From: Candidatus Altimarinota bacterium
Lineage (GTDB): Bacteria > Patescibacteriota > Gracilibacteria > UBA4473
Length of the DNA stretch: 47,375 nt
Direction: 5' to 3'
Assembly (NCBI GenBank): GCA_018608565.1
Contig: JABAZT010000027.1
Coordinates: 1,604-48,978 of the forward strand
Part shown: piece by piece, positions 14,169 through 43,853 of the stretch
Position numbering within the stretch: position 1 is the stretch's first letter
Layout: each line of letters starts with the position of its first letter
The notes under the pieces: generated by a model
Told to the model about the DNA's origin: nothing
What the model saw: only the letters and a program-made list of their open reading frames with translations
Database searches by the model: none
Position numbers and translations under genes: made by a program

Positions 14169-14894
14169 CTAGTTTGCTGTAACCATTTTAGGTATTTGAG
14201 GCAGGGTAGTAGTGCTCTTATCAAATAATTCATCGGGAATAAGTAATTCCATTTGTGCTATAAGCGCTTGCTTGATTTTCTGCCCTTCTTGGTAGACCCA
14301 TTCTTTTACGGCATCAAACGCTTGCTCTCTTTCTTCAATACATTTTGTATTCTTTGTTTTTTGAGTTTCATCAAACCATCCTACAATGGAATCCTTCCAA
14401 CTAAGTTTTTTGGTAGATTTATCTAGTAGATTCCTAATATTTGGATCTTTAATTTCAACTATTTCTTTTGGTTTAACAAATCCTCGAGCAAGATAAGACT
14501 GAATGGAGTCGGCGGTATTATTTATATTCCAAAATTCTTGAATATATAGATACTCCTCATCACTTATAATCCCACCACGAACAAGAATTTCAACTGTATC
14601 GCGTAAAACCATTGAGCTTCTAGTTGTAAATGTAGGATCTTTGATGAATAATCCCCAAAAATCATTGAGTTGAAATGCTGGAACACCATGAACACAAATA
14701 CCATTCTCTCCATCAGAGCGAGCAAAACAATTACAAACAGATTTTAAGGTCTTAAGTCTTGTGAATTTTTCATGTTGATTAAGGCATTTGATAATCTTAA
14801 CACGAACCAAATCTCTATATAAAGAAATAATCTCAGACCATTCTAGTCCAATTGCTTCCCGAATTGCTTCTTGGTTTTTTCTTAAACCTTCCAT
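14169..14894 (-). CDS. Hypothetical soluble protein
   Basis: 241 aa from the ATG at 14894. A longer frame to 14972 would add 26 very hydrophobic residues, but the promoter described below lies inside that extension and puts the transcription start on the internal ATG, so the shorter form is preferred. The protein is mostly helical with a Cys pair (SVCNCFARSDG) and a WGLFIKDP segment; no family was recognised. It stands alone between the proline cluster and the bPH2 operon. Its promoter resembles those of the first two giant genes, which suggests a common expression mode. Confidence 0.65.
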   Translation of the reverse strand: MEGLRKNQEAIREAIGLEWSEIISLYRDLVRVKIIKCLNQHEKFTRLKTLKSVCNCFARSDGENGICVHGVPAFQLNDFWGLFIKDPTFTTRSSMVLRDTVEILVRGGIISDEEYLYIQEFWNINNTADSIQSYLARGFVKPKEIVEIKDPNIRNLLDKSTKKLSWKDSIVGWFDETQKTKNTKCIEEREQAFDAVKEWVYQEGQKIKQALIAQMELLIPDELFDKSTTTLPQIPKMVTAN

Positions 14895-14929
14895 TAAGAT
14901 CAGAATAAAACTTATACAAAAAAAGTCAA
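14895..14929 (-). promoter_or_regulatory. Leaderless-type promoter of the 14894 gene
   Basis: TTGACT (14924-14929), 16-base spacer, TATTCT (14902-14907), then seven bases to the ATG. The core GTTGACTTTTT is shared with the promoters at 17634 and 22849. Confidence 0.6.
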
Positions 14930-14942
14930 CAAGTGTTGTTAT

Positions 14943-14970
14943 AAAAAAACAACAGATCCAAAGATCTATC
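14943..14970 (-). terminator. Terminator of the bPH2 operon, copy A of a duplicated element
   Basis: Minus-strand hairpin 14963-14970 with 14951-14958 (8 bp, two G-U pairs, 4-base loop) followed by a T-run. The surrounding ~40 bp recur almost exactly beside tRNA-Leu (16075-16116). Confidence 0.6.
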
Positions 14971-15105
14971 ATTCAAAAATGGTCGGCAAACTCGGAAAGG
15001 TTATACTCCAATTCAGAGTGAAAACAGGATATAGATCTCCATGCATGGAACAAGGTTTGGTGTGCCTGAGCCTGGGCAGGTTTATTTTTATATATCGTAG
15101 ATATT

Positions 15106-17633: not shown

Positions 17634-17668
17634 TTGACTTTTTTGGTTAAAAATATATTAAATGATCA
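17634..17668 (+). promoter_or_regulatory. Leaderless-type promoter of giant gene 1
   Basis: TTGACT (17634-17639), 16 bases, TATTAA (17656-17661), then seven bases to the ATG at 17669. The -35 region (GGGGTTGACTTTTT) is nearly identical to that before giant gene 2. Confidence 0.65.
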
Positions 17669-22848: not shown

Positions 22849-22883
22849 TTGACTTTTTGGCAAAAAAATTTAAAAAGTGATTA
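22849..22883 (+). promoter_or_regulatory. Leaderless-type promoter of giant gene 2
   Basis: TTGACT (22849-22854), 16 bases, TAAAAA (22871-22876), seven bases to the ATG at 22884. Copy of the layout before giant gene 1; the -10 is weak. Confidence 0.55.
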
Positions 22884-25800: not shown

Positions 25801-28800
25801 AAATTTTAGATCCTAAGCAAAAGGACTTATTAGCAGCCTGGGCTAAGCATCATAGAAAAAATATTAGAGATTTGGAATCATTTAGAGATATGCTTAATTG
25901 GTTCTTTGGAGATCAGATGCCAGTGGCAATTATACACTACTTTGAAGGGAACGAAGAGGGTGGAGATCTTGAAATGCCAGCGTATTATTCAGCAGAATTT
26001 TTTATCTTGTTGGAGAGAGAGTTGCATGGAGAGGCGAACACAAAAATATTAGAAGCAAATATAGAAAAAGCAACAAGGGTAATCGCTCTAATAAAAGAAG
26101 AACCACTCGAAGAAATAGTTAACTATTGTTTTGAAAATGATATTACACAGCCTCAGTATGGATTAATTAGGAATGGATTTTCATATCAGGAAATTCAGGA
26201 ATTTATGCAGATTTGTCACAGAAAACAGATAAAACAATTTAATGAATCTTGGCCATCTCTTGCATCTACCGATAAAAATAGATCCATAGTTGCTATTGCC
26301 GAGCATTCTAATACAACATTGATCTGCGCGGCTAAGTGTGGAACTGAATTTTTAGATATACCTACGCCGGAAGAGCTTCAGAGCTCTGGTTATAAAATTG
26401 ATAAAATGGGGTTGTGGTTTCTAATGGATCAGATCAAAATTCCATTCATTGAGACAGAAAATCTAGTGATGGTTGGAGTGTCAATGGCCTTTGGATTTCA
26501 TGATGAAGATTGTCGTCAGTTTCTACTCGAACAAGTGCTTCATCCGAAACAAACAAAACTTCTTGAGAGTACAGCTGAATACTATGCAACAAAGATTAGA
26601 ACCTGTGAGCCGATTCGTATAATGCTCGACTGGTTTTTCGGGGATCAAATGCCTGGGTGTTTTAGTCAGTATTATCCAGTTTTGAAAGGGAAAGAGGACT
26701 CAGAGATTTTAAATCCAAAATTAAAGATAAATCATGAATCTGCAGGAAAAGGAATTAGGACTGGGGAAAAATTTGATATTGCCTATGAAAACTTTAGCAC
26801 ATCAGAACCCTATACTATAACCATAATCAGAAAAGGAGCTCAAGATGAATCCTCCATACAATATGAAATTCAACGCTCAGGGAAGTCTGCATTCCGAATG
26901 CCTATAAATTTAGGCGATAATAAAATTAATTTTCCAGAAGCAGGCGGAATCTATCTATATGAATTTATTCTTACTAATGCCTATGGAAATGAACTTGATA
27001 GAGATGAGGTAAAAGTTGAACGTATATATAATCCTCAATGTAAGATAGAAAAAGAGGCATCAAAAAATATACTAGAAGGAAAAGCATTTACATACAATGT
27101 ATCGGATTTTGATCCAACAAAAACGTATACAGCAAGGTTTGTCGATATAGATGGAGAGATACATAACCTTGGTTCAATAGTAGAGGCAGATCATCATACT
27201 TGTAGTGCTGCCACACAGCCAACAGTCCCTGGGAAATATAGCGGTGAAATACAGATCTATACGGGAGAGACCCAGGTCATAGCTGATCAGATAGAGGTAG
27301 AGGTTCAATTTGCAGAGGGACCAGCAGTTGACTCAGAAAACATGATTCAGGATATCTTAGACGATCCTGAATTTGGAGCGGATGAAAAACTAGAAATTCC
27401 ATTTTCGAATATTCAAGTAGGTGCATCGGTTACCCTAAAAAATGAGAAAATGGGAACCGCTCAATTCAAACCAGATTCAACTGGGACAATAAAATTCCCC
27501 ATCCTCAGTCTTAAAGCCGATGGTCAGCCAGATGATGCTGAGTTTATGGCGATAGAATCTCAGTTTACCAAAGATGGACTCAAGAGTGAATGGACTACCA
27601 TCCAATTGGATATCAAAAATAGACAGGCGATAGAGCGAGGATTACTTGAGCCCGGATTTGATGAGATAGATGCCCTCGTTACAGCATTTCAAGGAGGTGA
27701 AGATGCATATGCTATCTTTATAAAAAATGCACCTCAAAACGGTTCATTGGTGATTGAGAGAGAGGGAGTAGGTGGGATGAAATTAGAAAATTCAGAACAT
27801 GGAGTGTTTAGCCTAGATCTCACAAAACTTCGTCCTGATGACGGAGAGGAATATAAGCTTGTTTTTGTTTTTGAAAATACAAAAGGTCAACGAGGAATAG
27901 AGCGGAGAATCACAATTCCTGCAGTAGAAGAACAAGGACCTTCTCTAGAGGAGCAGTGGGCGGCTGGATTAGAAGCGTTCTTTGGGGATGAATCGACAGA
28001 GGGAGAAACACTTATGCAATCAGCAGATTACAATAGAGAATTAGGACTACTGGAACTTAAATTTCCAGATACTGTCGCAGAAAAAATTCCTGCCAAAAGC
28101 ATCTCTATCGAAGACTTCAATCAAGAACAACTCAGCAAAACCAGTGGAAATATAAAACCAGATGAAATACCAGAGAAGTATTATGAGAAAATACGAGAGA
28201 TTGGAAATAGGGTGTTATTTCGAGAGATACAAGGAAGAACAGCAGTAGAAATACGAGACTTCTACAGTCCAGTAAGTGATCTTGGGGGGGCGATTGATTT
28301 TGAGAGAGGGGTGTCGGTAGAAAACTATGCCGAAGAGTTAGAAGATGATAGTCGATGGCGTTGGAGGCAAGAAAAATATCCACGATGGGATCGGGTATTA
28401 CACAAATACGTGCACGTTATGAACTCCATAATAAGTGGGCATACAAATGGAAAAGTAACGATGGAAATTACTCCTGATAGAGAGGTGAATCGTCTTGGGG
28501 AAGTATTGTTGATTGTGTCTGGGACGCCCGTTGAGTTTGAGATGACACTTACATTTAATGATCACGGATTTGATGTTACATACTCTCTAGGGAGTGAAGA
28601 TATGCCATCGAAAAATCAACAGCAAATATTTAAAGCGTACCAAGTGGCTCTACTGCATATGCTCAATGCAGTTACAAAAGAGGCCATAACAGAAGAAAAT
28701 TCTCTCCCTCCAATGAAGGAGCGAGAAGCACTCACTGGGCCGAAACTCAGGCAACATAAAAAACGAATTGCAACACATCTTAATGTGAGGCATCCCGATG

Positions 28801-29642
28801 GAGATATTGAGCTCTCAAAAGGCCCAGGGCAAAAACCAGAAAAAATATCACTTCAAAAGTTGAGAGAAATACATGCTAAAATGGATAAGATTGCGGAGAA
28901 AAAATTAAAAAAAATAGAGTTAGAGCCGGAAGAAGAAGAGGACTATCAAAACTATCTCAAAAGTCGAAATATCATCCAGACTCACGCAATGAGGACGGGG
29001 CAAAAATCAGTCTATGATCCAGAAATTTACAAAGAATGTCGTGAAGATCGAGAAAAACGAAGGATTATCCTGGAACGAGTCTGCAATACGTTTGGATTTC
29101 CAGCACGAGTAAGAGCAAAATTTGGGATGACTGAAGATCCAGAAACAGGAAAAAAAGTCTCTACCAAAGCCTACGAAGAGCTCATGACATATTTCACAGA
29201 TAAATCTGGAATGCTCGAAAAATTTACGAGTTCAGAATTTTTGGATGGTGCTTATAAAGCTATAACGAGAGGCGTAGAAAGCCCACAACTGAAAGTCGAT
29301 GGGGTTATGAGGGATAAAGTGTTAGCTACTATAAACTGTGAAGCAAAAGCAGATAATAAAACACAAACACCATTCGCTGATGATGCAAAAGATCGATTCT
29401 TCGAATATCTTGGACAACAAAATTTCTTTCAAGATATGATGGATCTAGATGGAAGCTTTATCGGTGGACTGATCAACCGCTTTGACACGAAAGGAGTGCC
29501 TATGGGCTATATATTTGGGACGGAATTATCTCCATTGGATCTTTTCCTTGAGGAGCAGATTATTCTCTCCGAAGATGCTACTAAAGCACCGGAAGATAGA
29601 CTCCTTAGTTATACAGCCGAAGATATTACAACAAACCAATAG
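22884..29642 (+). CDS. Giant protein 2: five ~245-aa repeats, Ig-like domains, mixed C-terminus
   Basis: 2252 aa, the largest gene here, no signal peptide, no family recognised. Five degenerate repeats fill residues about 60-1265. Each contains a signature of the form MLxWFFGDQMPxxxxQYY, with the key Trp at residues 284, 513, 760, 1006 and 1250 (spacings 229, 247, 246, 244). The last three are preceded by a (L/D)PKQK-type stretch. Residues about 1275-1480 and 1490-1680 are Ig-like beta domains. The C-terminal 550 residues are mixed, with a Glu/Lys-rich helical stretch (1985-2025) and a final globular part. Repeats have diverged at DNA level, so they are old. It is followed after 30 bp by a small basic-tailed protein. 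Confidence 0.85.
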   Translation: MKKKRLKRENPDPAEELPDGGEGERKAVVDLKPSIGRTIGSVDRATEIELLGESVARKIFSPEKLQELKNAQEQLRVAVQEIGLEYLKTKDIEGLDLGPFEKIDNSVDANFTYFDGRYLTDIGIDQMATCDIIIKLTEVKGRKSEEFQAADTFEGATIMSQQGYNIISHQAIQHSKGVLSDDFIKKGEAAALEDYTESQGNPSWASFWILMLDSEVSVNGGANANRCIGEGLYFVWAIQDKVTRDYMRLAFENSNKRDVLLNNWIESFQDDLQSGSEFIKMVQWFFEDMGTVPKCVESYLLEGESVEQDGDLEKDTYEYQAQLLDDWFSGEDTELHKKNIKDIIKAYEEQGNFDESIEQLVGQYIMPFPVLRKMGQEEDDDFTSFESKLIGKQLVYSAEELKRGRFHVEGIILLRAYGKIDREKIVKKYRDQLKETPGVWLLKEKQAFKSNKMEVMLAEDGIHLAFFRRDETLRTYYRNILLHERNKKFISHLAEGMAERIQNSQPVRDMLKWFFDGDIPVEVGQYMSEGIEVFDDGGYPMVRIMAEIYGVEKGAEALAELRTSEEKLKGHLDEPIPEIAEICRKEKMLMAHLVLEKLGFSEEKVEEFYDIRRTEVLGEFDKWFETVTGHREIKCLNAIAKTPQLLLQKMVREPMKQEVYFPSHFEEFSKAGIPKFNSAFAGWLCMENIALDKKYFETFKENMFLGGIYTIYSFNRDEKMREYMLKQVLHPKQKQFLLDSVEVSKDQIQNSKSIQNMLLWFFGDQMPHCIRQYYSEYEKEPEKYPNQALFEEIYKDRAHLVAPWMKALDRLREVVQENSKDLDVIARECVIDPDIRGLGLSPEVLRQEGLTEEEIENLRARFVTQYLDHFDEGIFEHGANLTGEEFRAFCIVTLCRYPKYTMARIINDHGDKFYIPKAIGEFSEKNKPSSYGVWCMLPEVEINFHREFDFVVDGFFSAYETEDLAMRDFMRKKILDPKQKDLLAAWAKHHRKNIRDLESFRDMLNWFFGDQMPVAIIHYFEGNEEGGDLEMPAYYSAEFFILLERELHGEANTKILEANIEKATRVIALIKEEPLEEIVNYCFENDITQPQYGLIRNGFSYQEIQEFMQICHRKQIKQFNESWPSLASTDKNRSIVAIAEHSNTTLICAAKCGTEFLDIPTPEELQSSGYKIDKMGLWFLMDQIKIPFIETENLVMVGVSMAFGFHDEDCRQFLLEQVLHPKQTKLLESTAEYYATKIRTCEPIRIMLDWFFGDQMPGCFSQYYPVLKGKEDSEILNPKLKINHESAGKGIRTGEKFDIAYENFSTSEPYTITIIRKGAQDESSIQYEIQRSGKSAFRMPINLGDNKINFPEAGGIYLYEFILTNAYGNELDRDEVKVERIYNPQCKIEKEASKNILEGKAFTYNVSDFDPTKTYTARFVDIDGEIHNLGSIVEADHHTCSAATQPTVPGKYSGEIQIYTGETQVIADQIEVEVQFAEGPAVDSENMIQDILDDPEFGADEKLEIPFSNIQVGASVTLKNEKMGTAQFKPDSTGTIKFPILSLKADGQPDDAEFMAIESQFTKDGLKSEWTTIQLDIKNRQAIERGLLEPGFDEIDALVTAFQGGEDAYAIFIKNAPQNGSLVIEREGVGGMKLENSEHGVFSLDLTKLRPDDGEEYKLVFVFENTKGQRGIERRITIPAVEEQGPSLEEQWAAGLEAFFGDESTEGETLMQSADYNRELGLLELKFPDTVAEKIPAKSISIEDFNQEQLSKTSGNIKPDEIPEKYYEKIREIGNRVLFREIQGRTAVEIRDFYSPVSDLGGAIDFERGVSVENYAEELEDDSRWRWRQEKYPRWDRVLHKYVHVMNSIISGHTNGKVTMEITPDREVNRLGEVLLIVSGTPVEFEMTLTFNDHGFDVTYSLGSEDMPSKNQQQIFKAYQVALLHMLNAVTKEAITEENSLPPMKEREALTGPKLRQHKKRIATHLNVRHPDGDIELSKGPGQKPEKISLQKLREIHAKMDKIAEKKLKKIELEPEEEEDYQNYLKSRNIIQTHAMRTGQKSVYDPEIYKECREDREKRRIILERVCNTFGFPARVRAKFGMTEDPETGKKVSTKAYEELMTYFTDKSGMLEKFTSSEFLDGAYKAITRGVESPQLKVDGVMRDKVLATINCEAKADNKTQTPFADDAKDRFFEYLGQQNFFQDMMDLDGSFIGGLINRFDTKGVPMGYIFGTELSPLDLFLEEQIILSEDATKAPEDRLLSYTAEDITTNQ
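23061..26678 (+). repeat. Five internal protein repeats in giant gene 2
   Basis: Signature W-F-F followed by (G/D/E)-D-(Q/I/M) and usually M-P at Trp284, 513, 760, 1006 and 1250. Repeat 1 is the most divergent (WFFEDMGTVP); repeats 3-5 share WFFGDQMP exactly. Confidence 0.75.
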
Positions 29643-31145: not shown

Positions 31146-32492
31146 TTATTCTAATTTCTTACCGATTAGACGTCGAGTATACCAGATCACAAAACAGGTC
31201 ATCACCGTATTAAGTCCAACGATGCTCCACCATATACTTTCTAGTCCAAGTCCCATGAGATTGACACAGAGGTTAAAGAGTAAGATTCGTCCAATAACAG
31301 TTCGAAAGAGGGGAGAAATAAATCCAAGCATTGGTTTCTTCATTCCTTGGAGAGCACTGAGGTGAATCCCTCCAATGACATAAGACCACTCCGTCCAAAA
31401 CATAACCCAGAGAAATTTCACTCCTAGATTAATTACTACGGCATCATTGGTGAAAATCCGCATAAGCCATTCTCCGAATACAGCCATCAACAAGCTCAAT
31501 GGCAGAATAATATACCAGCCCCATTTAGAGCCAATTTTGAGCGTTTGCATAATCCGATCAAATTTCCCAGCTCCATTGTTTTGAGCCACGATCGTCGAAA
31601 CCGCAATACTCAGACCAATACTAGGAAGGAGGATGATTTGTTCGATCTTGGTAGCGACTCCAAACATTGCGATTGCCTCAGCTCCAAATCCAGTAACAAA
31701 ATAATTGGTAACAAAGAAACCAATCGAAATCATCAGCATATTCATGCTCGCAGGAATTCCTTGGACCAACATTTCCTTGATAAAATTAAATCGAGGCACA
31801 AGGTGTGAAATTTTGAGCAATCCAAGGTAGCCTCTTTTAACACAAAGCATGAGAAGATATATTCCGGTTATAAATTCAATAATTACGGTAGAAAGAGCAA
31901 TCCCCGTAAACCCAAGTTTGGGAAATCCAAGCCAACCATAGATGAGGATTGGATTGAGGATAAGGTTAAGAAAAAAACCAAGAATAAGCATATTTCGAAA
32001 CGGTTTACTATCTCCATGAGCGGTGAGGATGGCATTGGAAAAACTAAATAAAATAAATCCAATCGTTCCATAGTAAATCATATGCGTGTACTCGAGGGCA
32101 AGAACAAGGGTTTGTCCTTCGATTCTCATCATTTCCAGGAGATACTGAGTCCCCAAAAGTCCAATAAGCATCAATATCCCAGTAATAAGGAAACCAAATC
32201 CAAAGGTTTGTTGCGTTTCGTTTGTGACAGAATTTTGCTTTCCAGTTCCAAGATTATTTCCAATAATCGCTCCAGCCGCTCGACCAAATCCATTGGAAAA
32301 TGCCAAAATCAGAAAAAATATAGGAAAGCTCAAACCAAGTGCCGCAAGAGCTTCGGTAGAGAGTTTTCCAGCAAAAATAGAATCAACGACATTGTACATC
32401 GTATGAAAGAAAAATCCGATAGAAGCCGGAATCGCTATTTGTTTTATTTGGATCGGAAGAGAGCCCGTGGTTAGGTCTTGAGATTTTTGCAT
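31146..32492 (-). CDS. MATE-family efflux transporter
   Basis: 448 aa from the ATG at 32490-32492. About twelve hydrophobic helices form two related halves, beginning IKQIAIPASIGFFFHTMYNVVDSIFAGKLS, the standard MATE opening, with the second half starting near LVQGIPASMNMLMISIGFFV. MATE proteins export drugs or metabolites by Na+ or H+ exchange; the substrate is unknown. The frame is open for another 119 codons upstream, but those overlap giant gene 3 in antisense and are not MATE-like, so the shorter start is chosen. Its first codons overlap the -35 of giant gene 3. Confidence 0.92.
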   Translation of the reverse strand: MQKSQDLTTGSLPIQIKQIAIPASIGFFFHTMYNVVDSIFAGKLSTEALAALGLSFPIFFLILAFSNGFGRAAGAIIGNNLGTGKQNSVTNETQQTFGFGFLITGILMLIGLLGTQYLLEMMRIEGQTLVLALEYTHMIYYGTIGFILFSFSNAILTAHGDSKPFRNMLILGFFLNLILNPILIYGWLGFPKLGFTGIALSTVIIEFITGIYLLMLCVKRGYLGLLKISHLVPRFNFIKEMLVQGIPASMNMLMISIGFFVTNYFVTGFGAEAIAMFGVATKIEQIILLPSIGLSIAVSTIVAQNNGAGKFDRIMQTLKIGSKWGWYIILPLSLLMAVFGEWLMRIFTNDAVVINLGVKFLWVMFWTEWSYVIGGIHLSALQGMKKPMLGFISPLFRTVIGRILLFNLCVNLMGLGLESIWWSIVGLNTVMTCFVIWYTRRLIGKKLE

Positions 32493-32512
32493 AAAAGTGT
32501 TATAATATTTCG
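32478..32512 (+). promoter_or_regulatory. Leaderless-type promoter of giant gene 3
   Basis: TTGAGA (32478-32483), 17 bases, TATAAT (32501-32506), six bases to the ATG at 32513. Same elements and spacing as before giant gene 4. The -35 lies inside the start of the divergent MATE gene. Confidence 0.8.
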
Positions 32513-35500
32513 ATGGGATCATACAATAAGCCTTCTCGAACACAAACGCGTATAGAAAAAAAGGATATAATTGTGCCTGATTTAGAGCATCTAGCATTAG
32601 AGGAAGCGCGTCAAACACTAAAAAAAAAAGTGAAGGGCGAGCTCGATACGGTGAAGACGATAGTATCAGGTCCAAGCACCAAAACACGTGAACATCAGTT
32701 AACGGTTGAGAATGCAATAAGTGGAGAGCATATAATTGATACGGAGTTAGATTTATTCTTAATTCCGATTGAAGGTGGAGGAACTGTCGTATACGAGCTA
32801 ACAGCTGATGGTGCGAAAGGGGCCTATATAGGAACGAGTCGAGAAGCAATATACGAAGAAACGCCAGTGGCAGTACCAGAAGAAGTCGATGTAGTAGAAA
32901 CTCCAGAACAACGGCAACTCAAGATACACAAAAATTCGATCATAGTCGCAATTCAGGGGCATAGATGGAGTATTGGAGCACGAGGAGATGGAGTTAGTAC
33001 GAGGATGACAGCCGCTTTGCTTGAGCCTGGATGGATGGATCCGAATATTGATGAAACTCAGTTTTTTAAGGCAGCACAGGAAATATATAAGGATATAACA
33101 GGAGGGGAAACATTGACTCTAGAGCAACTTGCAGAAATTAATCCAGCGCTCATGGAGGGAGCTGTAGATATGCCTCATTTTGCGGATGGATTTAAATCAA
33201 AATATACAACCCCGATTCTTCATAGTGGAGTAAAGCTAAAAGGAATTGGAAAGGATGTAACACTCAAGTCAATCCTTTCGGAGGGAATGCTCAAGGAATT
33301 TGATGAGGCGGATATGAAGATGATTTGGGTATATGACAAAACAAGCAAAGGAGGATCTGGTCGAAAGAACGGAATTCATGCTATCAGCTGGAATCCATCT
33401 CTAGATGCTGGTGCTAATCTTGTGTATCAAGACAATATAAGCGTACGAGCCATAATTAATACAGGGGACATGCTGTTCCCGACAGAGGCACACGCAACTG
33501 CTTTTCAAAATGAAGAAAATGGACTTCCTGCAAAGTCTACACCACCAGCAAGTGGAGCAGCGGGGTTATTTCGATGGAATCCAGACAGTGAAAAAGAATT
33601 TGGTCTCAAGGAACCAGTCGAAGTAGCAGGTCCAGTTCCAAGCGAAGAATTAAGTGAACCAAAGAGAAAACCAATAACACCGATCACGGCAGCGCCAGAA
33701 TTAGGAAAAGGAAGAATAAAAATTCCAGAGCCATCTCCGAGTATCTATACACAGTCAGAAACAAATATAGTCGATCCCGAGGTAGATCTAAAAACTTTGT
33801 CAGAAATTTCTTTTGAAGTACAGGATAAAAATCTTCGCAGAACCATAATAGACAAAACATGGGAGCGAGAATGTGGGAAGAGTATATCAGGATTAACCTC
33901 ATGGAATAAGGGAGAACCGTTTCCATCACTTGCATTTGCACATTTCATTTGGTTTCCAGAATCACTAAAAAAAGAAATAAAAGAAGATCTAGCAGCAGGA
34001 AAAGCCAATAAATATAATTTTGAGGAAAGTTTTCCTCCTATGATGAATTATCTACAGAAACAAGGAGTTGAATTTCCTGAGAGTCTTTCTTGGATGTTTG
34101 AAGATGAAGAACTTATAGAATGTAAATGGAAAACAAAAGAAGAATTTAATACAGCGAAAAATAACGGAGAATTTACAGCCTTACAGAATTTTTTTGCAGA
34201 TCCAGAAATACAAGATGTACAGCTAGATTATATTATCAAGGGTAGGGTGGAAGGGGTTAAAAATCATATTGCAGAGGATCTAAAATTACATCCCTACTTG
34301 CAACAAACCGTAATTGAAAATTTTGAATTATTATCCCAAACATCGGAAGGAAAAAGAGTCTTTATCGATTATGCAAACTACAAAGGAACCGGAACCGATC
34401 CAGAGAAGGATTACTATGTGACGAAAGATGGAGAGAAAATTCAATGGGGACTCTATCAGGTCTTATTGCATATGGAGCCATCCAATAATAATCCATTACA
34501 AGCAGTAGAAAATTTTGCAGATGCGGCATATCTAGTCCTCATAAATAGAAGACTTACCGAAAAAGGAGAAGATGGAACTAACGGACCTAATACAAATTAT
34601 GTAAATGGTTTTACCGGTCGAATAGATGGCTATTCGCCAGGACACATGAAAGATGGTCTAGACATAGCCAGCGATCCTCGAAAAAACAAGGAAAGAACAT
34701 TTAAAAAAATTGATTGGAGAGACACCCCAGAGGGAATGGCACGATGGGATTCAACACTTAAGGCCAGGCAACATCCAGAGAGCTTCGATCCAAGTCAGCT
34801 CATCGAATCAAAATACATTACGAATGTTGGAAGCAACCAGGCGACCTTTACGGCAGAAGTAAAAGATCCGCGGTTGAGCGAGATTGTTCCATGGGGACTA
34901 GAGTTTAATATTATAAAAAATGGGAAAAAAACACCGACCAAATGGGAATGGTGTGAAGATGAAAAGAAGATGGAATATTGTAATAATGGAAAAAGAGTGA
35001 AAATTGAAAAAGGAGATAAAATTGAAGCATTAGGAGTTCAGGGTGTAAGAGAAAAACTAATAGCCGGTAAAACCTATGAATTACCAAAAGAAAGCCATAT
35101 GGGGCCTGAGACGGTTCCAGATCTGACAAATGAACCTATAAGTCCTGATACAATTCATCTGATGACATTATTTCCAAAGCAATATCACTTTGGAGTCGTA
35201 TATTTATCAAAACTGGTACATGCACGAGGGAAAAATCTTTCAGTTAATGATACTTTTGCAATTCCAGATATAGCATCCAATACAATTGCTAAATATCACC
35301 CAACGAGAAAACCATCTATTAAAATTGAGACAGGAGGAACTTCCAAGCTAGGGATTGGTAATATATCAAGAGAATATGTTGGAGGAACTGCATTGGGGGT
35401 ATTCCAGATAGGAGATATCAAATATCCGGGAGGAAGTCGAAGTGCTTCTTTTACCCCAGGTTCTAAGACGGTACTAGGATGTAATATGGAGTTGAGAGGA

Positions 35501-37567
35501 CTAAGTGGGAAAGAGGTGCACGAAGAAAGTTATGATTATGAATTTAAGTATGCATCTGAAACTGCCTCAAAAAGAGATCCAGGAAATAAAATTAGAGAAA
35601 AGTTGGATGAAATACACAACTTTCGAACCTCAATGCCAAATTCAAATGCACGTTCAACTAATAATCCCGTAACAAAGAAAGATGATGCACGTGGAACAAG
35701 TTGGCATGGAATGGCTGGGGGGCGAGCTGATAAGCTTGATAATGGAGATTGTTCAAGTGCTTCGGGGGGGTGTGTAGTGCAGAGGATCAATCAGGTTTCA
35801 GATTTTGCAGAAGAGGTTGTTGCTGTTCGAAAGTTTGGAGCAAATGCATATGTATCTATCCAATATGATGGAGACCATTCATCACAATTGATTAAGGAGC
35901 TGAGTATAGATCAAGGAGAAGGCAAAGAATCACTTAGCTATTCTTATGAGGATATTCTTCAAGCCCAAGCGGAAAATAAAGAATTTGTGTCATGGCAGTA
36001 TGATTTTTTGACCGAAGGGGATCAAGATAATCGATTTGAGAAAAATAATGAAAAATGGTGTAACGATATTGAGCGGGAGATGCACAAGGATGGATCTGTA
36101 AAATTTTTGTTTTGTAAAAAATCAGAGCTCGAGAAGCTCGTTGTAGATAAACATCTGAGAACAAAACTAGAGATGCTCTATCCAGGAGAGAAAATAATAT
36201 TTCGAGACATAGATGCCAGAAAAAACAGTGGATCTGGAAATGCACCAAGTGAGGCAAAACATTTTGGAATACATATGTCTGCCATAAATACAAAGTCTAA
36301 TACATATGAAGAGAGAGCATTGGGGGATCTAGAGACATTTCATAACAGTACTATGTACGGAGGATATACCTTTCAAAATGGATTAAATCTCACTCGTATT
36401 TCAAGTTTTCATTCTTCTCTCGGAGGAGGGAAGGGGACCGTCAATGGTAGTAATCCAGTAGAAGGAAAAGAGAGTCCCGATCAACGATATTCCGGACATG
36501 AATTTTCTAACGGTTATGATCAAGACGGAAGAGAGTGGGGATTATTGAAAGATGGCACAGAATTAACATTTATTAATTTTGAGGGTGAGTATGCCAAATA
36601 CTCAAAACACCTTCATCGATATCAGTTGCCTAGCACACAGATGCAAGAGGGAATGACCGAGCAGCTTGAGGTTGCAAATGAACGAATGAGAAGAAAAATG
36701 AATAAAAAAGAACCAGGAAGATATCCTCTTGGCTCATGGGTGTTGGAAGTCACACACTCGTATGCGCTTATGAATTCTCCATCGACAAAAGTAAGTGGGC
36801 AGGGGGCTCATTCTGATTTCTTTACCCTGAGTAAGGAAGCGACAGAATTTGTAAGAATAGAACCAAGAGATAATACTGGATATACAGAAGATTTCAGAAA
36901 GGAGGCAAAAGAACTACTATCAGGAGAACAACCAACCGTAGAACAGCTAGACGAAATCGCTGAACTACAGTTAGACATGATTAAAGTTCGAGAAATGTGG
37001 TTGTCTCCAATTCGAAAAGCGATAGAAAATACGACAGGACAAGTGGCAAGTTTTGATATAGAGGATATGGTAGTGCATACGGACAGAATGCCAAAACCAA
37101 AAACGGAAGGAAGACCAAATTTAACTAAAGTTTCAAAAGAGGATACTGATGCGGATGTTTTTGATACAGCGCTCATTGGTGAAATGGCAGGAGCAGTTGA
37201 TCGATATATGCTTCAAAAAGAACATTTTGATGTAGATCCGAAAACAGGCGTTATGACTGTGAAAGACAATATTGGGGATAAACATTTAGGGGATATTCTA
37301 CAGAGATATCCAGGGATGTTGCTTGAGGCTCACGGGGAGGTTGCAAATATTGAGTTCGTGAGAAAGATAGATGATCCGGAAAGATATAAAGAAGAGGTGG
37401 GTAAAGATAGTGGGCGTGATGGAGAGTTTGTATATGCTGGAAAAGAAGAAATCCCTTCATATCATAAAGAGAAGTATTCTCAAGATGATATGCGTGTGAG
37501 AGTGAGTGCGGGGGCGAAAATATATATCAATCAAGCTCATTATGACCTCGTACATTCAAAAGAATAA
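32513..37567 (+). CDS. Giant protein 3 with possible YkuD-like domain
   Basis: 1684 aa, no signal peptide. Residues 365-410 form a Pro-rich linker. Residues about 955-1118 contain ALGVFQIGDIKYPGG, then SWHGMAGG (His1065) and SSASGGCVV (Cys1087) followed by a helix and VSIQYD. This order and the His...S-x-G-C pattern recall the L,D-transpeptidase (YkuD) active site, although the His-Cys spacing (22) is a little long and the usual Arg is absent. A module at about 243-325 recurs at 1587-1675 and in giant protein 4; it ends in a LysM-like (I/V)xxGxxLxxP motif. The protein starts MGS like giant protein 4, from an equivalent promoter. Cell-wall association is inference. Confidence 0.8.
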   Translation: MGSYNKPSRTQTRIEKKDIIVPDLEHLALEEARQTLKKKVKGELDTVKTIVSGPSTKTREHQLTVENAISGEHIIDTELDLFLIPIEGGGTVVYELTADGAKGAYIGTSREAIYEETPVAVPEEVDVVETPEQRQLKIHKNSIIVAIQGHRWSIGARGDGVSTRMTAALLEPGWMDPNIDETQFFKAAQEIYKDITGGETLTLEQLAEINPALMEGAVDMPHFADGFKSKYTTPILHSGVKLKGIGKDVTLKSILSEGMLKEFDEADMKMIWVYDKTSKGGSGRKNGIHAISWNPSLDAGANLVYQDNISVRAIINTGDMLFPTEAHATAFQNEENGLPAKSTPPASGAAGLFRWNPDSEKEFGLKEPVEVAGPVPSEELSEPKRKPITPITAAPELGKGRIKIPEPSPSIYTQSETNIVDPEVDLKTLSEISFEVQDKNLRRTIIDKTWERECGKSISGLTSWNKGEPFPSLAFAHFIWFPESLKKEIKEDLAAGKANKYNFEESFPPMMNYLQKQGVEFPESLSWMFEDEELIECKWKTKEEFNTAKNNGEFTALQNFFADPEIQDVQLDYIIKGRVEGVKNHIAEDLKLHPYLQQTVIENFELLSQTSEGKRVFIDYANYKGTGTDPEKDYYVTKDGEKIQWGLYQVLLHMEPSNNNPLQAVENFADAAYLVLINRRLTEKGEDGTNGPNTNYVNGFTGRIDGYSPGHMKDGLDIASDPRKNKERTFKKIDWRDTPEGMARWDSTLKARQHPESFDPSQLIESKYITNVGSNQATFTAEVKDPRLSEIVPWGLEFNIIKNGKKTPTKWEWCEDEKKMEYCNNGKRVKIEKGDKIEALGVQGVREKLIAGKTYELPKESHMGPETVPDLTNEPISPDTIHLMTLFPKQYHFGVVYLSKLVHARGKNLSVNDTFAIPDIASNTIAKYHPTRKPSIKIETGGTSKLGIGNISREYVGGTALGVFQIGDIKYPGGSRSASFTPGSKTVLGCNMELRGLSGKEVHEESYDYEFKYASETASKRDPGNKIREKLDEIHNFRTSMPNSNARSTNNPVTKKDDARGTSWHGMAGGRADKLDNGDCSSASGGCVVQRINQVSDFAEEVVAVRKFGANAYVSIQYDGDHSSQLIKELSIDQGEGKESLSYSYEDILQAQAENKEFVSWQYDFLTEGDQDNRFEKNNEKWCNDIEREMHKDGSVKFLFCKKSELEKLVVDKHLRTKLEMLYPGEKIIFRDIDARKNSGSGNAPSEAKHFGIHMSAINTKSNTYEERALGDLETFHNSTMYGGYTFQNGLNLTRISSFHSSLGGGKGTVNGSNPVEGKESPDQRYSGHEFSNGYDQDGREWGLLKDGTELTFINFEGEYAKYSKHLHRYQLPSTQMQEGMTEQLEVANERMRRKMNKKEPGRYPLGSWVLEVTHSYALMNSPSTKVSGQGAHSDFFTLSKEATEFVRIEPRDNTGYTEDFRKEAKELLSGEQPTVEQLDEIAELQLDMIKVREMWLSPIRKAIENTTGQVASFDIEDMVVHTDRMPKPKTEGRPNLTKVSKEDTDADVFDTALIGEMAGAVDRYMLQKEHFDVDPKTGVMTVKDNIGDKHLGDILQRYPGMLLEAHGEVANIEFVRKIDDPERYKEEVGKDSGRDGEFVYAGKEEIPSYHKEKYSQDDMRVRVSAGAKIYINQAHYDLVHSKE

Positions 37568-37617: not shown

Positions 37618-37652
37618 TTGAGAAAACACCTTTTTTATGATATAATCATGAG
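37618..37652 (+). promoter_or_regulatory. Leaderless-type promoter of giant gene 4
   Basis: TTGAGA (37618-37623), 17 bases, TATAAT (37641-37646), six bases to the ATG at 37653. Identical elements and spacings to giant gene 3; both genes begin ATGGGATC. Confidence 0.8.
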
Positions 37653-40600
37653 ATGGGATCTATATTAGACGGAGTAAAAGCATCAGAATTAGCAATACCT
37701 TCTTTATCCAAAAAAGAAGAGGATAAGGTCGCGCCAAAAAATGTAGTAAAGAAGGGAATAGAAAAAGAACAAGCAGGTTTGGCATTTCAGGCAGAGATAG
37801 CCGCCATGCACGAAAAAAATGGAAAGATAATAATAAAGAATCCAATATCAACATTGGAGCCAAATCTAGGTGATATAAAAGCAGGGACAGAGATAGTTAT
37901 TGGAGGGATAGTAAAAAATGATCAGGGTGAATTTCTAGATATATATGAATACGATGAGAGTGCAGAAAATAATAAAAGTGATAGAAGGCTTGGGTATATA
38001 AAGTCAGATACATTGATCGGGAGTGTTCAGGTTGTAGCAAAAAGACTTACTCGAAACATTGTTATCAATCTAGAAGAGGAGCAAGTTTCAGAGGAAGAAC
38101 TAAAGAGGAGAGTTAAGATTCGAACGACCGTGCGAGATATTGCGAGTAGTTTTATCATCAGAGCCAGAAACGAAGGGTATCGAGGTAGGAAAATGACGGA
38201 TATGGTTCAAAAACTTATCCTTCTGGAAAACTCAATTGAATCAATAGAGGTTATCTGTAATCAATGTCTCGAAGCCTATCCAGAAAAGACTAGGTCAAAA
38301 ATAGATATTCGTCGAATTTTGGGTGGATTAGGAGATAGATTGAAAAATCCAAAAAGAGAGCAATCATTTTTGGATGAAGCGTTTAAAAACAAATCAAGTG
38401 GAACCGAAAATCATCTTGGCGGTGTAGTTATGAAGGACATTGGAGGTAAAAAACTAAGAGATGTACTAAAACACAAGCTTCCTAACTTTATGATAGAGGA
38501 GCGATCTTTTGTTCGTGAAGTAACCTGGGATGCTAATTGGAAATCTCCAGACGGAAAATATACAGGGGAATACGTCTATGCCGGAACTAAAGATCGAATC
38601 TCAATCGGTGGAGGAGAAATCCTCTATCCACCAGAGGACTATGTAGAGCGGGGGGAAGTGCCAGAAAGAGTCAAGAAACTCAATAATAACGGAATTATAG
38701 TCCAATCTTCATACTGTGAAGAGAATGGGCTGCAAGAAGATGGTCTCAGTAGAACAAAGACAAGAACTGGAGTATGGGGAATGAGAGAAAATACAATTGA
38801 CGGATTCATTGCCCTAAAAAATGGAATCGAGGGGATTGAAGATTTGATTTACTATGGAGGATCAGAGACAGGTCATTTTGAAGGATATAAATACAAAGGA
38901 GTAAAGGCATCTCATGGAGGAGGTTTTAAAATCGATATAGCTGGAACATCTCCTGGGTATAAAGCGCTACTCAAGGAATTGAAGCAATACCAAAAACCAG
39001 AAAACCTAACCGGAAATGGGAAAAATTATAAAGAATATGAATTTACAAAGCATGGATATGTATATCGATTTTTGATCGAGGATAATCCAGTCCATATCGA
39101 TCTGGCGATAGTCGATGGAGATGGAAGTAAAAAAAGTGAATTTATATTTCAAGCCATAAACAAAACTCTTGCCGAGGCAGTAAGAGTTCGTCAGGTAAAA
39201 GTCGGGAGTCTCCGCTATAAGATTTTGGAAAAGAATCTGTATAAATTGCTAGAAAAGGAGTCTAATTTTGATATGAATCTAGAACAGTTTAATGATCTTT
39301 GTACCTCGGTGCGAGAGAGAGAAGCTGGGATTATAAAATCTCCACTACCAGGACTTACTCGATTGTTCACACCACGGGAAACAGATCGATCTATAAATCC
39401 ATGGCGAATAAAAGACAAATTCGTATTACAGACAAATGAGTTTGCGTTCATGAAATTTACAGGAGGAAATTCATTGAGTGAGATGATCACAAAGAGTGGA
39501 AAACCAATAAATAGTTTACAGGTACTAGATAATAACGGATTTTTGGTAGAGTTAGTGAGAGATGAGACTTCGGATGAATTTGTCATTGAAAAATATCATC
39601 TTCCCCGTGGAGCTAAGACTCCGTCTCTAAATGGGAAAAGGCTAGAAAAAGGAGTTGTTTTTTCAATATCTAGAGGTCATACAATCCTCATGCATAAACA
39701 TGATCCGGAACGTATTCCAAAACTAAAATTTAGAGATCAGGAGATGACGAAGTATGAATTACTCTTAGAAAATTCTGAATGGTTTGCCTATCACGTCCGA
39801 CGTATAAATGCAAAATGGAAGAAATACTGTGAGAGTGATGAAGCAAAAAATAAAGGGATCGTATTTAGCCCACTCAGTCTATATGAAGCCGCAATGCTGA
39901 TCATTGGTGAGACGGCTTACAGTGGGGCTGCAGTGAATCATAAGACTGGTAGTCATGAAGATGCAGAAGGGGGGGATGAAAAAGGATTGCTGCCAGGAAC
40001 TAGATATCCAGATTCACATGTGGGAGTAGTGGGTGGACATCCGTTAAATTGTTATAAAGTTACACATCGAGTAGAAGAAAATATTCTTGGTGTCTTAGAG
40101 CAAAATATGGCACTCGGGCATGTCGAAATTAAGTATACTGCGGGGAAAACTGAGTATCATAAGTATATTAAGCAACTATTGCCATCATCAGATAAAGAAT
40201 ATGAGGCATATTTAAAATTTATAGAAGATCCCGATCACCTAGAGAGTCTTAGCAAAGAGAAAAGAAAAGAATTTCAAACTATCGCCAGAAATGTAGCGTA
40301 TTTCAGACTTGCGACATTTCACGGGATGGGATTTCAGTCTTCAGTTGATAACATAAAAGCACAAACATCAGGAAGTGAGATTGGGTATAAGCCTTCGTAT
40401 AAATGTAGGTATAGACCAGGAAATATGGCAACGGCTATAGAGTTTATTAACTATTTGTATTACGAAGGACCAAGACCAGATCTGGTCGTATTGAATACAA
40501 AGCTAGAAGAAGAAAATAAACTAGTAGCAGCAGTGGAAACGGCTAGCAAAGTCGCAAAGGAAATTGCAGGGTCTTCAGTTGGTCAGTCAGTATCTATGAT

Positions 40601-41267
40601 GGGGAATCCCGCGGCGAATTCAGGCTCTATGAATAATGAAAGGACAATGTCAAAAGAAGAATTTGCGCGATATGAGGGTGAACCTATTTCTCTTAATAAG
40701 TTTGAGATTCCTGGAGACACTATGCTCTTAGGTGATTCTCATACCCTATCCATGATTGGGTGCGGAAGTAAAAAAGAGTTGGATGGGGTAATCCCGAAAA
40801 AAGAAGGAAAAGTGACGGCAAGACGAGGAGCAAGCTTGGCTTGGATGATTGAGAAAGCGAGTGTGATGAATTTTTCTGGAATCAATAAAATAGTTATTTT
40901 GGGAGGAACCAATGGTGTAAATGATATTGATAAAGCTACAAAAGAACTTGTGAATCCCAATGCGATCCAAGAATTGGTAAAAATAATCCGAAGAAAGGCT
41001 CCACATGTAAAAATAAATGTTGGTACAATTCCTCCTATTGACCGAAATAAGATGATAAACACTAGCTATACAAAATGGTATACGGAAGAAACAGAATTAT
41101 CTGCCAAAACATACAATGAATATATTCGTAATTCTCTGACAGGAGTAGAAGTCATTGATTTTGATTTGAATCTAGACAAGAGTCTTTTGGCAGGAGATGG
41201 ACTACATCTAGGGTTAAAAGGAAACGGAATCATACGTGGAATGATCCAAGAAGCATTAAAAAGCTAA
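37653..41267 (+). CDS. Giant protein 4: SH3-like, M15 peptidase-like and SGNH hydrolase domains
   Basis: 1204 aa, no signal peptide. Residues about 58-125 resemble an SH3b domain ending LGYIKSDTL. Residues 263-328 are the module shared with giant protein 3. Residues about 395-490 match the peptidase M15 pattern: YYGGSETGH, then SHGGGFKIDI (His421, Asp428) and PVHIDLAIV (His481), which would be the zinc ligands of a D-Ala-D-Ala or L-Ala-D-Glu peptidase. Residues about 1020-1204 form an SGNH/GDSL hydrolase: GDSH with Ser1029, GGTNGVND with Asn1087, and DGLHLG with Asp1182 and His1185. Such domains often remove acetyl groups from glycans. Together they point to murein or glycan remodelling, but no export signal is visible. 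A terminator follows. Confidence 0.85.
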   Translation: MGSILDGVKASELAIPSLSKKEEDKVAPKNVVKKGIEKEQAGLAFQAEIAAMHEKNGKIIIKNPISTLEPNLGDIKAGTEIVIGGIVKNDQGEFLDIYEYDESAENNKSDRRLGYIKSDTLIGSVQVVAKRLTRNIVINLEEEQVSEEELKRRVKIRTTVRDIASSFIIRARNEGYRGRKMTDMVQKLILLENSIESIEVICNQCLEAYPEKTRSKIDIRRILGGLGDRLKNPKREQSFLDEAFKNKSSGTENHLGGVVMKDIGGKKLRDVLKHKLPNFMIEERSFVREVTWDANWKSPDGKYTGEYVYAGTKDRISIGGGEILYPPEDYVERGEVPERVKKLNNNGIIVQSSYCEENGLQEDGLSRTKTRTGVWGMRENTIDGFIALKNGIEGIEDLIYYGGSETGHFEGYKYKGVKASHGGGFKIDIAGTSPGYKALLKELKQYQKPENLTGNGKNYKEYEFTKHGYVYRFLIEDNPVHIDLAIVDGDGSKKSEFIFQAINKTLAEAVRVRQVKVGSLRYKILEKNLYKLLEKESNFDMNLEQFNDLCTSVREREAGIIKSPLPGLTRLFTPRETDRSINPWRIKDKFVLQTNEFAFMKFTGGNSLSEMITKSGKPINSLQVLDNNGFLVELVRDETSDEFVIEKYHLPRGAKTPSLNGKRLEKGVVFSISRGHTILMHKHDPERIPKLKFRDQEMTKYELLLENSEWFAYHVRRINAKWKKYCESDEAKNKGIVFSPLSLYEAAMLIIGETAYSGAAVNHKTGSHEDAEGGDEKGLLPGTRYPDSHVGVVGGHPLNCYKVTHRVEENILGVLEQNMALGHVEIKYTAGKTEYHKYIKQLLPSSDKEYEAYLKFIEDPDHLESLSKEKRKEFQTIARNVAYFRLATFHGMGFQSSVDNIKAQTSGSEIGYKPSYKCRYRPGNMATAIEFINYLYYEGPRPDLVVLNTKLEEENKLVAAVETASKVAKEIAGSSVGQSVSMMGNPAANSGSMNNERTMSKEEFARYEGEPISLNKFEIPGDTMLLGDSHTLSMIGCGSKKELDGVIPKKEGKVTARRGASLAWMIEKASVMNFSGINKIVILGGTNGVNDIDKATKELVNPNAIQELVKIIRRKAPHVKINVGTIPPIDRNKMINTSYTKWYTEETELSAKTYNEYIRNSLTGVEVIDFDLNLDKSLLAGDGLHLGLKGNGIIRGMIQEALKS

Positions 41268-41348: not shown

Positions 41349-42524
41349 TTACCGAACTCGATTTCTGAGGAACGCAGGCGTATCAAAATCATCTCCTTCA
41401 TCAGGCATTCCCCCGGCTGGCGATTCTCCATTCATGCCAAATGCTTTTCTCATTAGTTGTGCATGACCCGGCTTCTTTTTACCTTCTTCGGCAAATCCAG
41501 TAGCAATAACAGTTATTTTTACTTCTCCGGTATAGTTTTCATTGATTACCGCCCCAAAGATTATATTAGCCTCAGGATCAGCCGCATCAGTGATGACTTT
41601 GGCCGCTTCATCAATCTCAAACATAGAAAGATCATTTCCACCCGTCACATTGAAAAGAATTCCTTTCGCTCCCGTGATAGATTGTTCGAGAAGAGGGGAT
41701 TCGATGGCGGCTTTAGCGGCATCAACCGCACGAGATTCACCTGCACCATATCCAATACCCATAAGAGCGGTACCAGCCGATGACATAACCGCTTTTACAT
41801 CTGCAAAATCCAAGTTTATCAGACCATGTAGTGTAATAAGGTCAGCAATTCCTTGTACTCCTTGTCGAAGTACTTCATCCACCACAGAAAAGGCATCAGT
41901 AAGTGGTGTTTTTCGATCAATGATAGATAGAATTCGATCATTTGGGATGGTGATGAGTGTATCAACACTATCTTTGAGTGCACTGTATCCTGTTTCTGCT
42001 TTTTTCCCTCGAGTAGCTCCCTCAAAACTAAATGGTCGAGTCACAACTCCAACCGTAAGCGCTCCAAGTTCTCGTGAAATCTGAGCGATTACAGGTGCGG
42101 CACCAGTACCGGTTCCTCCTCCTAGGCCACAGGTAACAAATACCATATCAGCTCCTTTGAGTGCAGATTTGATCTCATCCATAGATTCTTCAGCCGCATT
42201 TTTTCCTACATCAGGATTAGCTCCAGCTCCAAGACCTCGTGTGGCTTCTTTTCCGATATGGATTTTATGCTCAGCATTAGAGTGGTAGAGGGATTGTGCA
42301 TCTGTATTGACGGCGATAAATTCAACATTTTGAAAATCACTGCTCACCATTCGGTTTACAGCATTACATCCAGCTCCTCCTACTCCTATTACTTTAATAT
42401 TGGCTATTGGCGCAATATCAGGGACATAACTCTGAGAAGAGGCTTTAGGCGTTGGGTCTTTCTTTTTTGTGTCTTTTGTATTGTCACCATTAGATTGAAT
42501 AGCCGATTGCAGTAGGTCTTTCAT
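41349..42524 (-). CDS. ftsZ: Cell division protein FtsZ
   Basis: Tubulin-like GTPase that forms the cytokinetic ring. The tubulin signature GGGTGTG is at residues 135-141, and the N-terminal nucleotide-binding [13 protein letters not shown] precedes it at 47-59. The C-terminal tail ends [14 protein letters not shown], matching the conserved peptide that binds FtsA and other partners. At 391 aa it has a normal GTPase core, a 40-residue flexible N-terminus and a short linker. It follows ftsA with a 99-bp gap. No Shine-Dalgarno sequence precedes the ATG. Confidence 0.98.
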
Positions 42525-42623: not shown

Positions 42624-43853
42624 TTATGGAATAAAATTCTTAAACCATTGTCCTACTTTTCCAAAGGGTTTGAGAAAACTAAAATCCAAAATAGATTTTG
42701 TATTTCCATAACGATGATTGAAATGCAGAAGTCCAATACAACAAGCATAACTAGGATCATCAACTCGGTCGACAATACCTTCTATTTCTTTTGGAAATCC
42801 AATCTGCACTGGTAGTTGGAGTGTGTCTCGTGCGAGATCAACAACTCCAGGGATTTTCACTCCACCACCGACAAGTACGGCCCCAGCAGGAAGTAGTCCT
42901 TCTCGTCCGATTTTTGCCAGTTCATCTCGTGCCATGAGGAAGATTTCATCATATCGAGCACGGATGATTCGAGCGACTTGTTTCTTTGGGATAGAGTGTT
43001 CGTCTGTTTTAGAGATTTGAGAAAGATCAATTTCTTCTCTTTCTGGTATATCAGCTTCAAGACAAGTTCCGTATTCTATTTTTACTTTTTCCGCGGTATC
43101 AATCGCACATCGTAGACCAATAGCTAGATCATTGGTCACATGAGATCCTCCGACAGGAAGCACAGAAGAATAAATAACAGCGCCTTCTTCAAATACTGCC
43201 ACATTCGTACTACTGGCTCCGATTTCTATAAGTACAGATCCAAGTTCTTTTTGTTTTCGATCAAGCACACATTCGGCACAGGCAAGTACTGATGGAACAA
43301 TTTCCTCAGTATCGATACCAGTCTGGTACATACATTTTTCTAGATTTTTTACCGCGGCTAATTGTCCGGTGATTATATGAGCTTCTACTTCGAGACGGAT
43401 ACCAGTCATTCCTACTGGGTATTTGATATTTCGCTGACTATCGACAGCAAAGTTTTTTGGAATGATTCTCAAGATTTCTCGATTAGACGGAAGTGAAACA
43501 GTCTGTGCTGCATCGAGAACTCGATCTACATCATCTTCCGTAATTTCAGAGTTGTTTCCGTTAATGGCAATAACACCCTTGGAGTCATACGTTTCAATAT
43601 GTCCACCTGAAGTACTTATATAGGCACGATGGATTTGTTCTCCTGCCATTCGTTCGGCGTCCTCAAGACAGGCGGTTATATTAGATACCGCTTCATCAAT
43701 ATCAGAAACCATTCCTTTCCGAAGTCCTTCTGAAGGGGATATCCCGATTCCTATTAGATTAATAGTACTTTTCTTATCTTGTACCGTTCCAACAACGGTT
43801 CTGATCTTGGAGGTTCCAACATCAATTCCTACGATTATTTTTTGATTCGACAT
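42624..43853 (-). CDS. ftsA: Cell division protein FtsA
   Basis: Actin-family ATPase that tethers FtsZ to the membrane. The phosphate-1 motif GIDVGTSKIRTVVG is at residues 9-22. The FtsA-specific SHS2 insertion follows (about 83-160), and the second phosphate motif IEIGASSTNVAVF is visible. The C-terminus FGKVGQWFKNFIP is a short amphipathic helix, the usual membrane-targeting sequence. The length of 409 aa is typical. The pair ftsA-ftsZ keeps the order seen in the division clusters of most bacteria, here without the usual mur and ddl neighbours. Confidence 0.96.
   Translation of the reverse strand: MSNQKIIVGIDVGTSKIRTVVGTVQDKKSTINLIGIGISPSEGLRKGMVSDIDEAVSNITACLEDAERMAGEQIHRAYISTSGGHIETYDSKGVIAINGNNSEITEDDVDRVLDAAQTVSLPSNREILRIIPKNFAVDSQRNIKYPVGMTGIRLEVEAHIITGQLAAVKNLEKCMYQTGIDTEEIVPSVLACAECVLDRKQKELGSVLIEIGASSTNVAVFEEGAVIYSSVLPVGGSHVTNDLAIGLRCAIDTAEKVKIEYGTCLEADIPEREEIDLSQISKTDEHSIPKKQVARIIRARYDEIFLMARDELAKIGREGLLPAGAVLVGGGVKIPGVVDLARDTLQLPVQIGFPKEIEGIVDRVDDPSYACCIGLLHFNHRYGNTKSILDFSFLKPFGKVGQWFKNFIP

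Follow-up and report, generated by a model that had tools for sequence, protein, structure and literature searches.

The window analysed here, a 47,375 nucleotide (nt) stretch of DNA from Candidatus Altimarinota bacterium (contig JABAZT010000027.1), carries four giant genes. The last of these, giant 4 (positions 37653–41267, + strand), encodes a soluble protein of 1204 amino acids (aa). Giant 4 is best read, at somewhat better than even confidence, as a large soluble multi-domain enzyme active on the cell wall, in which a putative LAS-type peptidase is joined to a putative SGNH esterase. This reading is based on domain homology, on conserved catalytic residues and on the modelled fold of a canonical relative; from these we infer the activity, the substrate and the cooperation with the neighbouring giants. 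By sequence profile, the predicted peptidase is to be corrected from an M15 enzyme to a member of an uncurated hedgehog/M15-like family, whose nearest solved relatives are hedgehog N-domains.

The motifs behind the original prediction of a bifunctional protein are confirmed. SHGGGFKIDI is found at aa 420–429 and PVHID at aa 479–483, and GDSH (aa 1027–1030), GGTNGVND (aa 1084–1091) and DGLHLG (aa 1182–1187) follow in the C-terminal part of the chain. When the giant 4 protein was shuffled 2,000 times with its composition kept, the loose pattern H..G...D..Hx[DHE] appeared in 1.6% of the shuffles, the ordered SGNH motif in 0.2%, and the full peptidase family motif, G[TS]E..H..H..G.K.D..Hx[DH], in 0%. 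Of more weight than this test is the presence of both motif sets in independent homologues, the peptidase set in G181 and the SGNH set in G317. The open frame begins just 12 nt upstream of the giant 4 ATG, thus an N-terminal extension is impossible.

The C-terminal domain (aa 1016–1204, positions 40698–41264, + strand) is almost certainly an SGNH/GDSL hydrolase domain, as judged from Pfam, a profile search of the Protein Data Bank (PDB) and the G317 homologues. Pfam PF13472 matches aa 1080–1191 with an E-value = 6.4e-5, which is under the curated cut-off for this single sequence. A profile of two sequences, giant 4 and the G317 SGNH domain, matches solved SGNH hydrolases in the PDB with an E-value = 9e-10. 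Blocks I, II, III and V are all present. Ser1029, the predicted nucleophile, is in the GDS of block I (40737–40739, +), the predicted oxyanion hole residues are Gly1059 of block II (40827–40829, +) and Asn1087 in the GxN of block III (40911–40913, +), and Asp1182 and His1185 form the DxxH of block V (41196–41207, +). With the profile match and every block residue in place, the SGNH domain of the original prediction stands with a full catalytic set. The same blocks are seen in known SGNH/GDSL hydrolases (solved examples are 9kqz, 7tog and 2hsj), from which giant 4 differs in its sub-threshold single-sequence score and in having the domain as the C-terminal part of a giant chain.

The G317 protein shares 27% identity with the giant 4 SGNH domain over 200 aa (E-value = 1e-8) and contains two homologous copies of it. 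It is itself a giant of 1250 aa (L087:1823–5575, − strand), encoded in a genome of the same class. Like giant 4, it lacks an obvious signal peptide, and a single chain holds SGNH domains together with further domains of a wall-active or signalling type. Unlike giant 4, it pairs two SGNH domains with an SLT-like motif and a DSP-phosphatase-like domain, and has no hedgehog-like domain. The SLT-like motif of G317 was rejected as it has no Pfam match.

The hedgehog/M15-like (LAS-type) zinc-peptidase domain is placed at approximately aa 366–492 of giant 4 (38748–39128, + strand) by homology, alignments, the fold of a relative and a profile match in the PDB. No match to it was found in Pfam, PHROGs or NCBIfam. 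A first search of 353 genomes of the class showed one weak match, G181 (32% identity), whose homologous domain shares 30% identity over 144 aa with an E-value = 1e-8. The two-row profile of giant 4 and G181 gave a clear relative in G001 (E-value = 8e-10) plus others, and the family was gathered by repeated profile searches, each with a larger profile. The domain is found in 8 of the 353 class genomes, 10 of 333 genomes across the phylum, 7 of 49 genomes of one order and 41 of 238 genomes of another class. By these searches, the predicted peptidase domain belongs to a widespread Patescibacterial family that is missing from the curated databases searched.

The family signature is TSLxGI..TI..GG[TS]ExGH..H..G.K.D..E..HxD. 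An alignment of 39 rows shows E405, H408, H421, K426, D428, H481 and D483 (giant 4 numbering) to be invariant, with G424 and the glutamate before the last motif (E476 in giant 4) nearly invariant. E405 and H408 are part of the G-G-[ST]-E-x-G-H motif (38865–38876, +). H421 and D428 form the H-x6-D motif (38913–38936, +), align with H141 and D148 of hedgehog and are predicted to be zinc ligands 1 and 2. E476 is the predicted general base and H481 the predicted zinc ligand 3, with D483 following (39078–39101, +). Thus the zinc-ligand pattern by which M15 enzymes are recognized, H-x6-D and a later histidine, is present as H421/D428/H481 and does not vary in the alignment. Many family members display E-x-x-H in place of the E476-x4-H481 spacing of giant 4, which is also seen in L131 and L149 (ExNPxH). 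A few more distant members end in H-x-H instead of H-x-D; H-x-H is the classical LAS ending (PMC6027127).

The domain probably has a LAS-type peptidase fold. The 39-row profile, when run against all PDB sequences, yields 17 matches, of which 16 are hedgehog N-domains, in register on H141-x6-D148. The E-value is about 0.5 and the 16 are not independent of one another, thus the weight rests on the register and on the purity of the match list and not on the E-value. The domain of L111, a canonical family member, was modelled with a predicted local distance difference test score (pLDDT) of 91.2 and a predicted template modelling score (pTM) of 0.85. Foldseek matches of this model in the PDB are mostly MepA (1u10), the hedgehog proteins Shh, Ihh and Dhh, ChiX (5opz) and the M15 endolysin LysECD7 (8q2g). 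The top match among viral models is a hedgehog/M15-type protein (probability 1.00, template modelling (TM) score 0.59, E-value = 2.9e-3), and several of those that follow are named Peptidase M15.

Bacterial hedgehog homologues are members of the hedgehog/DD-peptidase (LAS) superfamily (PMC6027127). With the members of this superfamily (the Shh N-domain, MepA, ChiX and the VanX-type M15 enzymes) the giant 4 family has in common the H-x6-D zinc motif, a downstream histidine after an acidic residue, and the order of secondary structure elements. It differs in the GG[TS]ExGH sequence before the zinc motif, in the lysine before the zinc aspartate, in ending mostly in H-x-D and not H-x-H, and in being unmatched by Pfam and PHROG models. 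The M15-like assignment of the original prediction is thus kept at one level and lost at another: through H421, D428 and H481 the giant 4 domain is probably M15-like at the level of the superfamily, but it does not fall in a curated M15 family. M15_3 (PF08291) and M15_4 (PF13539) are unmatched by giant 4, by the domain alone, by its relatives and by the majority consensus of the family, which served solely as a search query, and the giant 4 locus was not among the picks when the source genome was searched with M15 families. Because no M15 family profile matched, we do not count giant 4 among the M15 members.

In the proposed mechanism H421, D428 and H481 would hold a zinc ion, E476 would activate water and E405 and H408 would line the site, with the peptidase domain cutting a peptide bond of a peptidoglycan stem or cross-link. 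The SGNH domain would act as a serine esterase with a Ser1029-Asp1182-His1185 triad and a Gly1059/Asn1087 oxyanion hole. It would remove an acyl group held by an ester bond, with an acetyl group of a wall glycan as the most plausible candidate, and the loss of the acyl group would open the glycan to other hydrolases.

Murein is the likely substrate, and a murein or glycan modifier, as had been proposed, is likewise the likely description of giant 4, but the evidence, though consistent, is circumstantial. The homologue L117 (G041) carries PG_binding_1 above the cut-off. G181 has an amidase_2-like stretch (E-value = 0.0036, under the cut-off) and G078, read with code 25, shows by eye a lysozyme-like second domain; both proteins are soluble and multi-domain, and have further domains that resemble wall hydrolases. 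In other classes, a membrane segment precedes the domain in 46 of 47 matches and the domain is C-terminal in 46 of 47 (13 of the 47 rows repeat loci that had been counted before), an arrangement consistent with an extracytoplasmic site. The link to peptidoglycan also draws on a second giant of the source genome, L163, which has SLT and M15_3 matches. The reading frames of the domain relatives L098, L117 and L118 are open only when TGA is read as glycine (code 25).

Fusions of T4SS_pilin (PF18895; T4SS, type IV secretion system) with the hedgehog/M15-like domain were found in the three relatives tested, from other Patescibacteria, with the pilin match above the cut-off in L109 and L111 and under it in L099. 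These proteins carry the same C-terminal domain as giant 4, but they are short membrane proteins (300–550 aa), unlike the soluble giant 4. Most Patescibacteria that have VirB2 are without VirB1 (PMC12102498). A broader proposal, which we hold to be speculative and on balance improbable, is that Patescibacteria widely possess a wall peptidase of their own, hedgehog-like and in most cases fused to a VirB2-like T4SS pilin, where it may replace the peptidoglycan cutting of VirB1, and that in this lineage the peptidase became part of a soluble giant, linked to an SGNH domain and sent to the wall of a host or of prey. Peptidoglycan cutting by the pilin fusions, if it occurs, would account for a patescibacterial T4SS that works in the absence of VirB1. 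For the question of how ultrasmall Patescibacteria get through host walls, the analysis offers a phylum-wide conserved, uncurated hedgehog/M15-type domain, at least three copies of which are on proteins of the T4SS-pilin-like kind, and a soluble giant, unusual in that such a domain is joined to an SGNH esterase. From this come a few candidate residues and proteins, and a further bacterial branch close to the hedgehog fold.

Several observations weigh against giant 4 as a wall enzyme with a LAS-type peptidase. Curated M15, hedgehog and phage families are unmatched, even by the family consensus, and an hhalign comparison of the family with four M15 sequences aligned only the H-x6-D segment (P = 0.046). 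The Foldseek matches of L111 are weak, with E-values of 0.15–1.5 in the PDB (TM up to 0.48) and 2.9e-3 among viral models. The model of the giant 4 domain itself (aa 335–525, 14 homologues) has a pLDDT of 70.8, which is too poor to count for either side, and a Foldseek search with it gave no LAS match and no significant match. The predicted general base of giant 4 is five residues before the third histidine and not three. About 460 aa between the two domains remain unassigned, as do about 340 aa at the N-terminus. Finally, hydropathy shows no signal peptide, membrane segment or hydrophobic N-terminus in giant 4.

The last point bears on the target. The original prediction had the enzyme possibly aimed at another cell, a target that we regard as doubtful: giant 4 has neither a signal peptide nor a membrane segment, and a route for its secretion was not identified. 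The source genome shows 16 T4SS_pilin matches, thus a type IV-like apparatus may exist in the organism, and no link between these genes and giant 4 was found. A part in conflict or in interaction with a host would suit giants that evolve fast and are lineage-specific. Vampirococcus lugosii, a predatory bacterium of the candidate phyla radiation (CPR), is reported to have giant proteins and wall hydrolases (PMC8080830). Its giants resemble giant 4 in being very large and lineage-specific and in belonging to a wall-attacking CPR lineage, but they have been interpreted as surface proteins of the membrane that recognize the host (PMC8080830). Giant 4 carries enzyme domains and no membrane segment.

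Two other explanations concern the peptidase domain itself. The domain may be hedgehog-like but catalytically dead, with a zinc-holding or adhesive function, in which case giant 4 would be a surface or binding protein with the SGNH domain as its one real enzyme. That the nearest solved relatives by profile are hedgehog N-domains favours this, as does the E476–H481 spacing, which departs from M15. Animal hedgehog acts as a ligand. For hedgehog N-domains, peptidase activity is unproven (PMC4102407). However, the zinc ligands and the flanking E, H, K and D residues are invariant in 39 diverse sequences, which include the soluble multi-domain proteins G181 and G078, and invariance of this kind suggests selection on catalysis; a dead domain is considered unlikely. 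It has also to be asked whether the H/D/H motif is a product of chance or convergence in a new fold unrelated to LAS, as neither a known family nor a PDB chain is matched significantly by sequence (E-value < 1e-3) and the Foldseek E-values in the PDB are above 0.1. This appears quite improbable, since two independent methods, the profile against PDB sequences and the fold search, single out one and the same superfamily from hundreds of thousands of chains, and the zinc motif is in register.

The remaining two concern the role and origin of the gene. Giant 4 may be a housekeeping factor or one that remodels the cell's own wall, possibly tied to the adjacent ftsZ (41349–42524) and the ftsA-like gene (42624–43853), both on the opposite strand, and the protein has no export signal toward another cell. 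But a housekeeping divisome factor would not be expected to be an orphan, as giants 3 and 4 both are: searches of the 353 class genomes gave no full-length counterpart to giant 4, and those of 80 relatives none to giant 3. There is no signal peptide for reaching the cell's own wall either, and we give this explanation little credence. An origin of the giants from a virus or mobile element, as its remnants or its cargo, with enzymes for lysis or entry, would agree with the hedgehog/M15-type matches among viral models and with wall-degrading M15 domains being common in phage tail and tape-measure proteins. This origin was already disfavoured and seems very improbable, as giant 4 finds no match in 50,697 phage records, in viral contigs or in PHROGs, for which a phage origin was rejected, and the giants sit between cellular genes (rlmH-like, prfB and ftsZ). 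The bifunctional wall enzyme remains the preferred reading of giant 4.

The giant genes are set among ordinary cellular genes, rlmH-like, prfB-like, ftsZ and ftsA, as named from their translations. The source assembly has 1.66 Mb in 43 contigs and is 98.9% complete, and the closest records to the FtsZ encoded next to giant 4 are from Peregrinibacteria and Peribacteria (62–66% identity), which places the organism in this group of Patescibacteria. Giant 1 (17669–22828, +, 1719 aa) and giant 2 (22884–29642, +, 2252 aa) have no signal peptide. In the giant 2 translation approximately four long degenerate repeats are seen around LHPKQKxLL...MLxWFFGDQMP. Giant 3 (32513–37567, +, 1684 aa) shows by eye a YkuD-like motif, WHG..DCSSASGGCVV, at aa ~1095–1120, a reading that was rejected as it has no profile support.

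Outside its two catalytic domains, giant 4 displays a possible small repeated module at aa 258–330 (38424–38642, +), weakly similar to the giant 3 C-terminus (aa 1581–1646). An adapter module common to giants 3 and 4 was not accepted, with a weak phmmer E-value = 0.042 and no extension by jackhmmer. The middle region (aa 500–960, 39150–40532, +) has no Pfam match, and no homologue of it turned up in the searches made. A lysozyme-like reading of aa 735–900, where ETAYSG resembles the SLT glutamate motif, was dropped for the same reason, and hhalign of the middle region with two SLT-like sequences gave a probability of 0.1%.

Other giants were seen in related searches. L163:1–10527, on contig 42 of the source genome, encodes an Asn/Gln-rich giant of approximately 4000 aa with an SLT match (E-value = 1.4e-8) and an M15_3 match just under the cut-off (E-value = 2e-4), and is followed by large secreted-looking proteins. 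L097:82–5841 (+, G178) encodes a 1919 aa giant with two PG_binding_1 stretches and, by eye, CHAP/NlpC-like motifs; a hedgehog-like domain starts downstream of it at the contig end.

A promoter-like element, TTGAGA-17-TATAAT-6-ATG, precedes giant 4 (37618–37652, +); it is a consensus match only and would give a leaderless transcript. TTGA[C/G] is found exactly 35 nt before the ATG in all four giants (TTGAC in giant 1), and the elements with their ATG are at 17634–17671, 22849–22886, 32478–32515 and 37618–37655 (all +). In giants 3 and 4, TATAAT follows a 17 nt spacer and ends 6 nt before the ATG, which is the geometry of a leaderless transcript. This exact pattern with zero mismatches occurs upstream of giants 3 and 4 only; with two mismatches allowed there are 3 matches against 1.06 expected. 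The shorter TTGAS-30-ATGR gives 8 matches against 3.0 expected, and 8 were reached in 1 of 100 shuffles. The elements suggest that the giants are co-regulated as leaderless transcripts, and since the four genes are neighbours whose promoter-like elements match, they probably work together. The same TTGACTTTTTT..ATG element is present at 14891–14929 (−), within the called open reading frame 14169–14972 (−). This location suggests that the true start of that frame is the internal ATG (MEGLRKNQ...), and the gene may share a regulon with the giants.

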